DNA of 64,000 nucleotides from an uncultured Bacteroidota bacterium (GTDB lineage Bacteria; Bacteroidota; Bacteroidia; Flavobacteriales; Flavobacteriaceae), in contig CABXGL010000001.1 of the NCBI GenBank assembly GCA_902511755.1, positions 1 through 64,000 of the forward strand. Direction: 5' to 3'. The notes below the pieces were generated by a model. The model did not search any database. It was not told where the DNA came from and saw only the letters and a list, made by a program, of their open reading frames with translations. Position 1 is the first letter of the stretch, and every line of letters begins with the position of its first letter. Below, piece after piece: positions 31,734-36,515 of the stretch. A program made the translations under genes and the position numbers.

Positions 31734-31825
31734 TTTTTTTAACCCAATATTTCGCTATAAGGATTACTTATTTCTTTGATACATTTAACTATAATCATTT
31801 TTTTTCATTTAGTTTGGAATAATTT

Positions 31826-31855
31826 TTTGTATAAGAAATTTGAGATGTATATTTG
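31826..31855 (+). promoter_or_regulatory. Promoter of the sdh operon
   Basis: TTTG at 31826-31829, an 18-nt spacer and TATATTTG at 31848-31855 match both boxes of the Bacteroidota housekeeping promoter. The start of transcription should be near 31861, about 12 nt before the first ATG. Confidence 0.6.
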
Positions 31856-31872
31856 TTTAACAGTTAGTGGAA

Positions 31873-32760
31873 ATGTTAAAAAAGAACTTAATAACAAATG
31901 AATTGGTAGATGATAAATGGTGGATATCTCCTCTTTTAGTGCTTTTTGGATTACTTATTTTTATGGTTTATTCTACATGGGCTGCATGGCAAGGAGAATA
32001 TTTTTGGTGGAGCGGTGGTAATGATGGGTTTGGGGGATATCTTTCTCCATTCTATTCTCCTACCGTCTATATCGATGCTTCAAAGCCTGGAATCCCACCA
32101 ATGGATCATTCCTTATTAGGTTCTTGGCCTGAATGGCTGAGTTGGCTTCCTGGACAATCCCCGGCATGGCTGATTCTTATATTTCCTTTGTCTTTCAGAT
32201 TTACATGCTATTACTATAGAAAGGCATACTATAGAGCATTTTCTTTAAATCCACCAGCTTGTGCTGTTCAGCCTATTAAAGGAATCCCTTCAAAAATTTC
32301 TGCACTTACTAATGGAAATATTAATGCTTTTAGTTCCGGAAAGAGTTATGATGGAGAAAGAGGATTATTACTTTTTCAGAATATTCATAGGTATGCTATG
32401 TATTTTGCTGTAATATTTATCTTTATATTAAGTTATGATGCATTTCTTTCATTCTTTAATGATGGAAAATTTGGGATAGGTGTTGGAACTATAGTATTAA
32501 CTATAAATCCAATTCTTCTAGGTTGTTACACTTTTGGATGTCATTCTCTAAGACATCTCGTGGGAGGAAATCTAGATTGTTACTCTTGCAGTCTATATAA
32601 AGATAAAGTGAATCATAGCAGTTGGAAGATAGTTACAATTTTAAATAGAAGACATCAATTATTTGCTTGGTTAAGTCTAGTATGGGTAGGGCTTTCTGAT
32701 GTATATGTTAGACTTGTGTCAATGGGAGTAATTGATGATATAAATACTTGGGGAATATAA
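31873..32760 (+). CDS. Succinate dehydrogenase membrane anchor, Sdh1 (mycobacterial) type
   Basis: This 295-residue integral membrane protein has about five hydrophobic helices (WWISPLLVLFGLLIFMVYS; AWLILIFPLSFRF; YAMYFAVIFIFILSYDAFL; IVLTINPILLGCYTFG; HQLFAWLSLVWVGLSDVYV) and directly precedes sdhA and sdhB. It is unlike classical SdhC/SdhD pairs and resembles the single large anchor found in Sdh1-type complexes of Actinobacteria and some Bacteroidota. A Cys/His-rich motif is present, C218, C223-H224, H228, C236 and C239 (GCHSLRHLVGGNLDCYSC). In mycobacterial Sdh1 a membrane-embedded Rieske-type cluster has been reported, and these residues are the obvious candidates here (inference). The start is ATG at 31873; a GTG two codons upstream is less likely. 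Confidence 0.82.
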   Translation: MLKKNLITNELVDDKWWISPLLVLFGLLIFMVYSTWAAWQGEYFWWSGGNDGFGGYLSPFYSPTVYIDASKPGIPPMDHSLLGSWPEWLSWLPGQSPAWLILIFPLSFRFTCYYYRKAYYRAFSLNPPACAVQPIKGIPSKISALTNGNINAFSSGKSYDGERGLLLFQNIHRYAMYFAVIFIFILSYDAFLSFFNDGKFGIGVGTIVLTINPILLGCYTFGCHSLRHLVGGNLDCYSCSLYKDKVNHSSWKIVTILNRRHQLFAWLSLVWVGLSDVYVRLVSMGVIDDINTWGI

Positions 32761-32762
32761 TT

Positions 32763-34619
32763 ATGCTTGATATATCAGGAATTAGAAGATTACAATTTGA
32801 TGTGCTAATAATAGGCGCTGGAGGGGCAGGCTTATCTGCTGCAATATCAGCATCTCAAGATAAAAAAATAAGAGTAGGACTTGTTTGTAAATCGCTTTTA
32901 GGAAAAGCACATACTGTAATGGCTGAAGGAGGAATGGCTGCAGCATTAGGAAATGTAGATAATCGAGATGATTGGAAAATACATTTCAGAGATACTATGC
33001 GGGGAGGAAAAATGCTTAATAATTGGAAGATGGCTGAAATACATGCAAAAGATTCTCCTAAGAGAGTAAGGGAATTAGAGCATTGGGGAGCAGTCTTTGA
33101 CAGGACCAGAGATGGTCTTATTAATCAAAGAAATTTTGGAGGACATAGATATCCTAGATTAGCTCACGTAGGAGATAGAACTGGACTAGAGATGATTAGA
33201 ACTCTGCAAGATCATGGAATTCATCAAGGTATAGACATTCATATGGAATGTACTGCATTAGATATTTTAAAAGACAAATCTGGTAAAGTAGCGGGAATTG
33301 TATGTATGTATAGAGAAACAGGTGAATTTATAATATTCGAGACTAAATCTTTAATATTTGCTACTGGTGGTGCTGGAAAATCTTGGGAGGTAACATCTAA
33401 TAGTTGGGAATATACTGGAGATGGTTTTGGAATGGCATTTGAAGCAGGTGCTGAGTTGATAGATATGGAATTTAATCAATTTCATCCAACAGGAATGGTT
33501 TGGCCTCCATCAGTAAAAGGTATTTTGGTTACTGAAGGAGTTCGTGGTGAAGGAGGAATACTTAAAAACAATAAAGGTGAAAGATTCATGTTTGACTATA
33601 TACCAGAAAAATTTGCTAATGAAACTGCTGATTCTGTAGAAGAGGCTGCTAGATGGCTTGCGGGAGATAAAGATGCCAGAAGACCACCTGAATTATTAAC
33701 TAGAGATGTTGTTGCTAGAGCAATCAATGCTGAGGTTAAGGCAGGTAGGGGATCAAAGCATGGAGGTGCTTATTTGGATATAGCCACACAAAGATCATCT
33801 GAAGATATAAAGAAAAAGCTTCCATCTATGTACCATCAATTCAAGATATTGGCTGAACTAGATATTACTAAACAACCTATGGAAGTTGGGCCAACATGTC
33901 ACTACTTTATGGGAGGTATTAAAGTAGATGCTGAGACATCTATGACGACAGTAGATGGACTATTTGCTTGTGGTGAGGCTGCTGGCGGAATGCATGGTGC
34001 TAACAGGCTTGGCGGAAATTCTTTATCAGACCTTCTTGTCTTTGGAAACTTATCTGGAATTCAATCTGCAAAATATTCAAATAAATTAAAATCTATGCCT
34101 AAAGCAGATGATGATGATATTAAAAGAATTATTAAAAATGCAACATCTATTTTAAATAGAGAGAAGGGGAATAATCCTTATTTAATACATGAGGATCTTC
34201 AAAAGAACATGCAAGACAACGTTGGTATTATTAGAACTAAGAAGGACATTCAAGATGGAATTAATAAAATTGAAGAAATGAAATTACAATTTCAAGATGT
34301 TAAAGCTCCAGGATCAAGTCAGTTTAATCCAGGATGGCACGAAGCTCTAGCGCTTAGAAATTTACTTATTTCTTCAGAATCTGTTGCAAGATCTGCTCTA
34401 TTAAGAGAAGAGAGTAGAGGCGCACATACAAGAGAAGATTTTCCTTCTGAGGAGGATGAATGGTTACATTATAATATCATCAGTAAAAAAGGGGTTAATG
34501 GAGAAATGCAAACAATTAAAGTTAAAAGATCTGAGCCGGACAACGAACTAAAAAGAATTGCAAACTCCTCTATAGAGGACTTAGAGAAAGAGGTTAAAAT
34601 TGATCACAATAAAGTATAA
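32763..34619 (+). CDS. sdhA: Succinate dehydrogenase flavoprotein subunit
   Basis: This 618-residue flavoprotein has the N-terminal FAD fold (VLIIGAGGAGLSAA), the His for covalent FAD in GKAHTVMAEGGMAAALG, the conserved HVGDRTG and EFNQFHPTGMVWP, and the catalytic Arg/His motif REESRGAHTREDFP. It oxidises succinate to fumarate, or the reverse, as part of the respiratory complex. The start at 32763 (ATG) comes 2 bp after the anchor's stop; a TTG at 32748 is upstream in frame but unlikely. The sdhB gene follows 8 bp later. Confidence 0.95.
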   Translation: MLDISGIRRLQFDVLIIGAGGAGLSAAISASQDKKIRVGLVCKSLLGKAHTVMAEGGMAAALGNVDNRDDWKIHFRDTMRGGKMLNNWKMAEIHAKDSPKRVRELEHWGAVFDRTRDGLINQRNFGGHRYPRLAHVGDRTGLEMIRTLQDHGIHQGIDIHMECTALDILKDKSGKVAGIVCMYRETGEFIIFETKSLIFATGGAGKSWEVTSNSWEYTGDGFGMAFEAGAELIDMEFNQFHPTGMVWPPSVKGILVTEGVRGEGGILKNNKGERFMFDYIPEKFANETADSVEEAARWLAGDKDARRPPELLTRDVVARAINAEVKAGRGSKHGGAYLDIATQRSSEDIKKKLPSMYHQFKILAELDITKQPMEVGPTCHYFMGGIKVDAETSMTTVDGLFACGEAAGGMHGANRLGGNSLSDLLVFGNLSGIQSAKYSNKLKSMPKADDDDIKRIIKNATSILNREKGNNPYLIHEDLQKNMQDNVGIIRTKKDIQDGINKIEEMKLQFQDVKAPGSSQFNPGWHEALALRNLLISSESVARSALLREESRGAHTREDFPSEEDEWLHYNIISKKGVNGEMQTIKVKRSEPDNELKRIANSSIEDLEKEVKIDHNKV

Positions 34620-34627
34620 TCTACAAT

Positions 34628-35386
34628 ATGAAGGAAAGAGATTTTAAAATATATAGAGGAGATGATGAAAAGGGCGAATTAGTTGGCTATAAGTGTAATG
34701 TCTCAGAGGGAATGGTCGTTTTGGATGTGATTCATAGAATTCAGGCAGATCAAGCCAATGATCTTGCATGCAGATGGAATTGTAAAGCAGGAAAATGTGG
34801 TTCATGCAGTGTTGAAATTAATGGCAAACCAAGACTTGCTTGTATGACAAGAATGAACGAGTTTGAAGAAGACAAAACTATTATAATTACCCCTTTGAAA
34901 TCTTTTCCAGTTATGAGAGATATTGTCACGGATGTCTCATGGAATTATAAACAAAATCAAAAAATATTGCCTTTCTCTCCTTCCAAAAAAGACAAAGAGA
35001 AAGACTTTGTTATGATGCAAAAGGATGTAGACAGAGTTCAGCATTTTAGAAAGTGTATAGAGTGTTACCTGTGTCAAAATATGTGCCATGTAATAAGAGA
35101 TAATGAAGGAAAGGGGAAATTTGCTGGTCCAAGATTTATGGTTAGACTTGCGAGTTTAGAAATGCATCCAATGGATAGAGCCGATAGAATTAAAGAAATA
35201 AAAGAAGAACATGGATCAGGCATGTGCAATATAACTAGATGTTGTACTGAGGTATGTCCTGAAGAAATTCAAATTACTGACGATGCTATAATTCCACTTA
35301 AAGAAAGGGTTGTTGACAGATATTATGACCCTGTTATGATGCTTTTTAATAAGCTTTTTGGCAAGAAAAAAAAAGTTACTGATTAA
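34628..35386 (+). CDS. sdhB: Succinate dehydrogenase iron-sulfur subunit
   Basis: This 252-residue protein has a ferredoxin-like N-terminal domain with CRWNCKAGKCGSC plus a later Cys in RLAC for a [2Fe-2S] cluster. Its C-terminal domain carries CIECYLCQNMC and CNITRCCTEVCPE for further clusters. It passes electrons from the flavin to the quinone or membrane cluster. The length and Cys pattern match the Sdh1-type SdhB. Confidence 0.95.
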   Translation: MKERDFKIYRGDDEKGELVGYKCNVSEGMVVLDVIHRIQADQANDLACRWNCKAGKCGSCSVEINGKPRLACMTRMNEFEEDKTIIITPLKSFPVMRDIVTDVSWNYKQNQKILPFSPSKKDKEKDFVMMQKDVDRVQHFRKCIECYLCQNMCHVIRDNEGKGKFAGPRFMVRLASLEMHPMDRADRIKEIKEEHGSGMCNITRCCTEVCPEEIQITDDAIIPLKERVVDRYYDPVMMLFNKLFGKKKKVTD

Positions 35387-35419
35387 ATTTTATCTCGGGA
35401 TTTTTTGATAAAGTCATCT

Positions 35420-35468
35420 TTACAATAAACATTGTAATTAATGAAAAATTTTAATTAGTTAGCTAATT
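35420..35468. terminator. Weak hairpins between convergent sdhB and the paraoxonase-like gene
   Basis: Two short inverted repeats lie here: TTACAAT/ATTGTAA (35420-35437) and AATTAG/CTAATT (35453-35468), the latter running into the stop of the minus-strand gene. Both are AT-rich and lack a long T run, so termination strength is doubtful. Confidence 0.25.
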
Positions 35469-36515
35469 TTCTGTTTCAAGAATTAAGAAATGTTCATCCA
35501 TTACATTTCCTGTAAAAATAAGATTCCCAAAAGGAGCTGCAACAGTTGATCCTGACATAGTATCCCCCATTTCAATATAAACTTGTTCTATCAAATAATT
35601 TTCTTTTTCTATATAATTGATTTTTATAATTTCTGATGGAGCGATTTTTTGATCACCATTTGCATAAAAATTGAAATGTAATAAACTAGGGTGTGCGCCT
35701 ATCCAAAGGTTATTTTCTGAATCAAATTCAATATTATCCACTCCGGTATTGCAATAAATATTTTCAATAAATGTTAAGGAATGGTCGTCATTTTTTTGAT
35801 ACACTTTGACTAAGAATTCTCTTATTGAGGCTACAAACACTAAATTTCTTTTAGTGTCAAAATTAATCCCATTTGCATAGGCAATTTTATTTGCAACTTC
35901 AATAAAATTTATTCCGTCAAAATAAACAACATTAGACATTGCCAACCCCAAGTAATCTTCAGCTAAACGCTTTATGCCATCTTTATATTTATGGTCATTC
36001 GTAAAATAAAATCGATTGTCATCTAATAAAACAATATCATTTGGGCTATATATAAGCTCATGTTCTAATGTTTTTTTATGAGTTAATTTTGTTCCAAATA
36101 ATTCAAAAAGTTCTATAAACTCTCCTTCTATAGTATGATTTATAGCAGCGATTATACTTATACTATCTTTTTTAAAAATTGAAATTCCGTGGGGTGCAAA
36201 TGGTTTTTTAAAATTTCCTGTAAGATGGATGGGCTCGTAATTTTTGTTTTTCAAATCTAAAAAATATAATCCTCCAGTTTCTTGTTCAGTCTTTGGAAAA
36301 CTTTTTCTAGCTGTAGAAGATATAATGGCAAAACTGTCTATCTTGTTAATAGTAATATCTTCTGCTCCTGTTAAATTTACTTTTTTTAATATTTTCCCTT
36401 CAAACTTATTTTCTATAGCCCTAAAAAACCCGGTACTCCAAAAAATATTAATAATAAATAAAACAAGTAAAACTAAAATTAATAGTAGAATTCTTTTATT
36501 TAAGATTATTTTCAT
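35463..36515 (-). CDS. Paraoxonase/arylesterase-like six-bladed beta-propeller protein
   Basis: This 350-residue protein has one N-terminal membrane anchor (ILLLILVLLVLFIINIFW) and a periplasmic six-bladed propeller. Calcium-ligand motifs typical of the paraoxonase/arylesterase (PON) family can be seen: TGAEDI, PHGISIF, SPNDIV, YANGINFD and VDNIEFD, with GSTVAAPFG near the C-terminus. PON-like enzymes hydrolyse lactones or aryl esters. The substrate in this organism is unknown. An SMP-30/gluconolactonase-like assignment is a looser alternative. It lies 12 bp downstream of the Ig-like lipoprotein gene on the same strand. Confidence 0.8.
   Translation of the reverse strand: MKIILNKRILLLILVLLVLFIINIFWSTGFFRAIENKFEGKILKKVNLTGAEDITINKIDSFAIISSTARKSFPKTEQETGGLYFLDLKNKNYEPIHLTGNFKKPFAPHGISIFKKDSISIIAAINHTIEGEFIELFELFGTKLTHKKTLEHELIYSPNDIVLLDDNRFYFTNDHKYKDGIKRLAEDYLGLAMSNVVYFDGINFIEVANKIAYANGINFDTKRNLVFVASIREFLVKVYQKNDDHSLTFIENIYCNTGVDNIEFDSENNLWIGAHPSLLHFNFYANGDQKIAPSEIIKINYIEKENYLIEQVYIEMGDTMSGSTVAAPFGNLIFTGNVMDEHFLILETEN

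Follow-up and report, generated by a model that had tools for sequence, protein, structure and literature searches.

Class F complex II is described, in the accessible part of a review (PMC10238741), as having a single six-helix membrane anchor with an integral-membrane Rieske cluster, and is illustrated there with the structure 7D6V; class B complex II is given two b hemes in the same text. Mycobacteria carry class F Sdh1 (7D6V/7D6X, from Mycobacterium smegmatis) and, according to the part of PMC7447783 that is accessible, a second, diheme enzyme, Sdh2. Class F Sdh1 is also described for Rhodococcus equi (PMC13332983, in part). The residues which ligate the cluster are not given in the accessible portions of PMC9461714, PMC12695928 and PMC7447783. 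The mycobacterial anchor was the only solved class F anchor found with a profile search at E up to 0.01. In the PNAS paper on the Sdh1 structure, changing two His ligands to Ala reportedly abolishes quinone reduction. A literature search covering few subscription journals returned no report of class F in Bacteroidota, nor of the exchange of enzyme classes described below.

The stretch analysed here (the window) comes from a marine flavobacterium with a small genome, is 64,000 nucleotides long and carries an operon in the order sdhC-sdhA-sdhB (31867-35386); its features are collected in Table 1. Residues of the anchor are numbered from the ATG at 31873 throughout, the listed open reading frame beginning two codons earlier at an in-frame GTG. 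SdhA contains the motifs HPTG, RGEGG and PTCHYFMGG, and SdhB carries the cysteine motifs for 2Fe-2S, 4Fe-4S and 3Fe-4S clusters. The mycobacterial Sdh1 subunits presumably belong to the same two families, NF005866 and NF009052. Upstream of the operon lies TATATTTG, which we take to be a Bacteroidetes-type -7 element by its consensus, with a TTG at 31827-31829, 18 nt upstream of it; by eye, an element of this type is also seen in the genomes or loci G007, L044, G818, L045 and L046 and is absent in L047.

Table 1. Features of the sdhCAB locus in the window (positions of the 64,000-nucleotide stretch).
Feature	Position	Strand	Remarks
Decayed class B sdhC remnant, about codons 24-54 (5' scar)	31734..31826	+	score 48 vs G016 sdhC
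Imported block	31792..35396	+	92.5% DNA identity to L044 (other genus); matching flanks 70-76%
TATATTTG, -7 element at start of imported block	31848..31855	+	by eye; putative promoter role
sdhC, class F membrane anchor	31867..32760	+	297 aa from GTG 31867; 295 aa from ATG 31873
C112, invariant candidate cluster ligand	32206..32208	+	83/83; within one fetching pattern
C130, invariant candidate ligand	32260..32262	+	83/83
H172, invariant candidate ligand	32386..32388	+	83/83
C223-H224-S-L-R-H228 motif, candidate ligands	32539..32556	+	C, H, R, H in 83/83
C236-x2-C239, lineage-specific C-x2-C, loop after helix IV	32578..32589	+	outside invariant set
H261, invariant candidate ligand	32653..32655	+	83/83
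sdhA, flavoprotein subunit	32763..34619	+	NF005866 935.6 bits, cut-off 819
sdhB, iron-sulfur subunit	34628..35386	+	NF009052 415.3 bits, cut-off 256
3' junction, eroded in window	35387..35462	+	clear in G007, L044, G424

The anchor was compared with solved structures using phmmer, and matched the M. smegmatis Sdh1 anchor (7d6v_C) with an E-value of 7.6e-46; five structures were matched at E up to 10, the other four being antibody chains with E-values of 0.16 or weaker. A profile of 69 sequences (alignment A2: the window protein and 68 of the 81 locus proteins, four of over 312 aa having been removed and nine more to shorten the set) matched the same chain with an E-value of 2e-89. The AlphaFold2 model of the anchor (mean pLDDT 83) has TM-scores of 0.71/0.78 to 7d6v_C, and structure comparison gave a Z-score of 23.9 over 249 residues. 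The remaining structure matches (cytochrome b6f, TRPV and others, Z up to 6.5) were set aside, since middling Z-scores are common among helical bundles. The helices of the model (18-40, 98-110/113-124, 166-192, 204-221/224-231, 244-259 and 261-284) were read as five membrane spans, or as six helices if 244-259 is counted; the review gives six for the class (PMC10238741, in the accessible part). Searches with the anchor gave no family match in Pfam (E up to 1) or in NCBIfam (E up to 0.01).

As the anchor is clearly homologous to 7d6v_C in both sequence and structure, we assign sdhC-sdhA-sdhB to class F complex II. Judged from its sequence, the window operon encodes a further member of an already known class, found in many phyla, and the comparison with mycobacterial Sdh1 drawn in the first-pass annotation of this DNA is borne out by sequence and predicted fold alike. 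The same annotation had noted that a classical SdhC/SdhD pair is lacking; this agrees with the results as far as tested, there being no Pfam match of the anchor and no class B anchor in the 68%-complete assembly. Three other identities of the anchor were considered and rejected: a class B anchor of the b558 type (no match to TIGR02046 in the genome of the window, G000), a class C SdhC/SdhD pair (Sdh_cyt, PF01127; no Pfam match, and one anchor gene in the operon) and a classical Rieske domain with CxH / CxxH loops (no Pfam match, the candidate site lying within a helical membrane protein). For the last of these, PF00355 is taken to represent the classical soluble domain.

Residue conservation was counted over all 83 rows of an anchor alignment made up of 80 named loci, G115, the window and the M. 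smegmatis chain 7d6v_C. The 80 loci are the best 80 of at least 584 related stretches and were fetched with two peptide patterns, one of which contains C112. Seven Cys/His residues are invariant in all 83: C112, C130, H172, C223, H224, H228 and H261. All seven are also kept in six separately compared anchors (G483, G550, G575, G711, G115 and G818), G115 being counted in both sets. They are common to the window anchor and 7d6v_C, and available for a Rieske-type cluster. The first-pass annotation had proposed another set of ligands at 32520-32595, an interval within which the C223-H224-S-L-R-H228 motif falls: C218 (32524-32526), C223-H224 (32539-32544), H228 (32554-32556), C236 (32578-32580) and C239 (32587-32589). 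All six residues are present where it placed them, and C223, H224 and H228 belong to the invariant set, while C218, C236 and C239 are found in just 13, 31 and 23 of the 83 anchors, respectively, and are all absent in the M. smegmatis anchor. The alignment that it had named as the deciding check thus splits the motif in two, one half conserved and the other not, and the six-ligand cluster is rejected in that form, since three of its six residues vary. What survives of the proposal is the idea of a Rieske-type cluster, supported by homology to a structure described as holding one (PMC10238741, in the accessible part). By the positive-inside rule, applied by eye to the helices of the model, the N-terminus and the loops 125-165 and 232-243 would be cytoplasmic; most of the invariant residues would then lie on the side facing SdhB, as is expected for a cluster fed by SdhB. 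We infer a Rieske-type cluster in the window anchor.

The two cysteines C236 and C239 form a C-x2-C in the loop that connects helix IV to helix V, and 63 of the 83 class F anchors have a C-x2-C in this loop. It lies near the start of the loop in 27 of them, including the window and all 11 rows labelled Bacteroidota by NCBI, and near its end in the other 36; G115, which is of the same phylum by its handle, is one of the latter. The remaining 20 anchors, that of M. smegmatis included, have no C-x2-C in this loop. The motif is probably cytoplasmic.

A scan of genome contigs with degenerate patterns gave at least 584 related stretches, the best 80 of which include Acidobacteria, Planctomycetes, Myxococcota, Verrucomicrobia, Gemmatimonadetes and Bacteroidota. 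Five stretches in viral contigs also fit a pattern, none of which encodes a relative, and a viral source was discarded. By the sampling used here, class F is rare in Bacteroidota: a single-protein search detected the anchor in 2 of 395 genomes across the phylum, and a profile search detected it in 7 of 397 at the family level, the window's own genome being included both times and one of the seven being a weak match with stops. This last match, in G781 (L145; E 7.3e-4, two stops), is not counted as a class F carrier; it is either a decayed copy or a chance match, in a genome given as 100% complete. Within the genus of the window, class B (TIGR02046) was found in 17 of 22 genomes, 16 of them over the cut-off; in these 17 the SdhA matches, too, reach only the class B level. 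Three genomes (G000, G007 and G424) have a class F SdhA and no TIGR02046 match, and neither class was found in G006 and G018. Both classes occur together in none of the 22, all of which are incomplete drafts. The genus of L044 (apparently the same record as G563, by the same place of its AsnRS) is likewise mixed: of its 6 genomes, 2 gave class F, 2 gave class B (one of these over the cut-off) and none gave both. Outside the genus, 14 class F genomes were given to the TIGR02046 search: 5 also match and 9 do not, the latter including G427-G430, small genomes which are closest in the operon.

In the four class B genomes first compared (G015, G010, G016 and G008), the class B operon stands between the very genes that flank the class F operon of the window. 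These are a 949-aa sortilin/BNR-repeat protein and a 431-aa M24 peptidase upstream, and a 540-aa Ig-like protein followed by further genes downstream. The neighbours are collinear and 64-97% identical, while class B and class F SdhA are only 26-27% identical; collinearity was read in these four genomes, and a table of neighbours was made for 20. The same is seen in the other genus, where the class B genome G815 and class F L044 have common flanks with a DNA identity of about 82%.

Remnants of the class B operon were found at the ends of the class F one. The significance of their alignment scores was judged against 300 shuffles, which keep base composition only, and against about 4800 other places in the window. 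The 5' scar of the window scores higher against sdhC of G016 than any of the 300 shuffles (best 45) and any of 4796 other window places (best 38); against sdhC of G015 (27, with 247 of 4796 places as high) and of G815 (20) its scores are not significant. The scars of G007 and L044 are clearer, scoring 79 and 70 against G016 (best of 300 shuffles 38 and 42, respectively; best of about 4800 window places 38) and 67 and 101 against G015, with none of the other places as high. L044 scores 114 against G815, of its own genus (best shuffle 35), while G818 matches G815 only in the upstream intergenic sequence. The scars of the window, G007 and L044 align in the same register, at about nt 67-171 of sdhC, and by eye the junction is alike in G000, G007, L044 and G818, with an SHFMGNNF-like class B sequence followed by the GATGTATATTTG block. 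The contig of G424 begins inside sdhA, which is why its 5' junction is absent. No class B sdhC remnant was found upstream of the operon in the presumed donors L045-L047.

At the 3' end, the last codons of class B sdhB are recognised in L044 (73), G007 (57) and G424 (37), scores reached by none of the 300 shuffles and none of the about 4800 places, and the breakpoints of G424 and of G007/L044 are no more than about 8 nt apart. The window scores 26 there, with 5 of 300 shuffles and 86 of 4804 places as high, which is not significant. In L045-L047, the gene next to class F sdhB is convergent with it and encodes a 439-aa sugar transporter (PF00083); beyond it comes a 296/297-aa gene, which is of the ROK family in L046. 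The end of the transporter gene is matched by the tail of G424 with scores of 58, 44 and 56 against L045, L046 and L047 (best shuffles 39, 31 and 33), by that of G007 with 27, 35 and 29 (reached by 21, 0 and 4 of 300 shuffles) and by that of L044 with 31, 44 and 27 (0, 0 and 7 of 300). The window does not match the donor tail, scoring 20-21 with 77-114 of 300 shuffles as high. From these tails we infer that the lineage of L045-L047 represents the type of the donor; any advantage that the exchange may have brought is likewise conjectural.

Several further observations concern these surroundings. In G015 and other class B genomes (L039:11474-13783), the region ahead of sdhA holds an open-frame extension of about 100 codons that has no match in Pfam. 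A similar-looking ORF of 131 aa (L044:5468-5863) lies beside the class B sdhC scar of L044 and matches the integrase arm domain PF17293 weakly, below the cut-off (E 0.0085); from its position, pieces of the old operon seem to have been rearranged there. A 350-aa arylesterase/SMP-30-like gene (35463-36515) stands by the operon in some genomes of the genus and is absent from G015, G010, G008 and G003. The class F contigs L038, L037 and L036 (G007, G424) end inside the operon, as if in DNA common to co-assembled populations.

The identity of the operon exceeds that of its carriers. Its three proteins are 94/94/97% identical to those of L044, with AsnRS at 69%; 89/88/91% to those of MED-G19 (AsnRS 61%); and 83/88/86% to those of AG-343-C10 (AsnRS 63%). 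Class F is also carried in the family by G575, G550 and G483, in which AsnRS is 68-71% identical and SdhA just 73-75%. Between the window and L044 the operon genes have pN of 0.014-0.029 and pS of 0.23-0.32; pN being far below pS, they are under purifying selection. A tree of the flanks (five downstream proteins from 16 genomes of the genus and L044) places G000 and G007 beside the class B genome G016, and G424 beside the class B genomes G010 and G008, and rejects a single class F clade of the three (AU p 5.6e-66). The AsnRS tree differs in grouping G424 with G015, G012, G016, G000 and G007 (86/98), and in it, too, the class F genomes are separated by class B genomes. In the operon tree, G424 falls outside a group of G000, G007, L044, L045, L046 and L047, and the genus as one clade is rejected with p-values of 9.1e-5 (protein) and 9e-49 (DNA). 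Uniting G000, G007, L044 and G424 costs 13 log units with protein (p 0.044) and 25 with DNA (p 0.003); this rejection is weaker and compatible with either one insertion which then spread, or two. In the class B tree, for which some SdhA rows include the upstream open-frame extension, the main groups of the flank tree are recognised by eye and G014 has a long branch, and this fits class B as the resident enzyme.

The homology of the anchor, its predicted fold, the conserved residues, the synteny, the scars and the conflict between trees support one reading: the window very probably holds a class F operon, presumably heme-free and of the Rieske type, that was acquired horizontally and displaced the ancestral class B sdhCAB in place. 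This history, which the first-pass annotation had not seen, appears to be the unexpected part of the locus. The opposite order of events, with class F ancestral in the genus and class B arriving later, would account for class F occurring in two separate branches of the flank tree. We nevertheless hold it to be very improbable, as it is the class B remnants that flank class F operons, while the class B junctions inspected, two upstream and one downstream, showed no remnant of class F; class B is moreover the enzyme of 17 of the 22 genomes, with a tree keeping the main flank groups, and in the class F operon tree the genus does not come together. Hardly any more credible is that a chimeric assembly or faulty binning joined a foreign operon to this genome. 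The genomes are drafts, and in G007 and G424 the operon is cut by contig ends, but the window contig (138 kb) spans the operon and both flanks, the upstream joint is alike by eye in G007, L044 and G818, the downstream scars recur in G007, L044 and G424, and in G818 the anchor and the peptidase gene are on one contig. A more serious variant concerns the number of events: the class F operon could have been inserted once into a class B operon, all hybrid loci descending from that event and moving between lineages by recombination in their flanks, so that repeated insertions need not be assumed. The same-looking 5' junctions of G000, G007, L044 and G818 and the near-coincident sdhB breakpoints of G424 and G007/L044 would be explained by this; against it stand the rejection of the four hybrids as one clade, with both protein and DNA, and the longer donor tail kept in G424, and we regard it as possible, if somewhat doubtful.

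The cofactor invites a different objection, namely that this is an Sdh1-family anchor with, in this lineage, no Rieske cluster, in which the Cys/His residues are structural, line a quinone site or bind zinc, and quinone is reduced directly from the 3Fe-4S cluster of SdhB. What is shown is conservation, and seven invariant residues exceed the four that a Rieske cluster needs, so that some must be otherwise used. All seven are, however, shared with an anchor described as holding such a cluster (PMC10238741, in the accessible part) and do not vary in 83 sequences, and we judge the objection improbable. With the Rieske-type reading retained, electrons from succinate would pass to FAD in SdhA and through the three iron-sulfur clusters of SdhB to a [2Fe-2S] cluster on the cytoplasmic side of the anchor, held by two Cys and two His out of C112, C130, C223, H172, H224, H228 and H261, and from there to quinone, with no heme b. 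The incoming class F operon would have left fragments of sdhC and sdhB of class B on either side of it. As class B is described with two b hemes, the exchange would cost the enzyme two hemes and bring in one [2Fe-2S]. More speculatively, class F sdhCAB could be a recurrent swap cassette of small-genome marine Bacteroidota, using the class B ends as homology arms and repeatedly converting a heme-type enzyme into a heme-free Rieske one, with the C-x2-C as a further metal or redox site near the cluster in most non-mycobacterial class F enzymes; we consider this broader scheme unlikely as a whole.

Close relatives with the same neighbours thus have a complex II that is of the heme type in some and of the predicted Rieske type in others. 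They amount to a natural experiment on what the cofactor of the anchor contributes to the oxidation of succinate by quinone, which also bears on why class F exists. The set of 83 sequences in turn defines an invariant core and a loop motif missing from the mycobacterial enzyme.

Compared with known systems, the locus resembles M. smegmatis Sdh1 in its single anchor, the same predicted fold and the seven invariant Cys/His, and differs from it in having the C-x2-C of the IV-V loop. Whereas mycobacteria have a second, diheme Sdh2 (PMC7447783, in the accessible part), no second complex II was found in the incomplete genome of the window, and the class F operon here, unlike mycobacterial Sdh1, stands in place of class B. 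With the class B operons of its relatives it shares the chromosomal place, the gene order sdhC-sdhA-sdhB and the expected reaction, but those are heme-type, with anchors that remain unmatched at the thresholds used and the distant SdhA noted above. In situ xenologous gene displacement is a known evolutionary process, and the window fits it in having a foreign operon in an orthologous position. It departs from the usual case in that a whole respiratory complex is replaced by one of another mechanistic class, with recognisable pieces of the old operon at the ends, which suggests that distant lineages can exchange a core respiratory complex in its entirety and in place.
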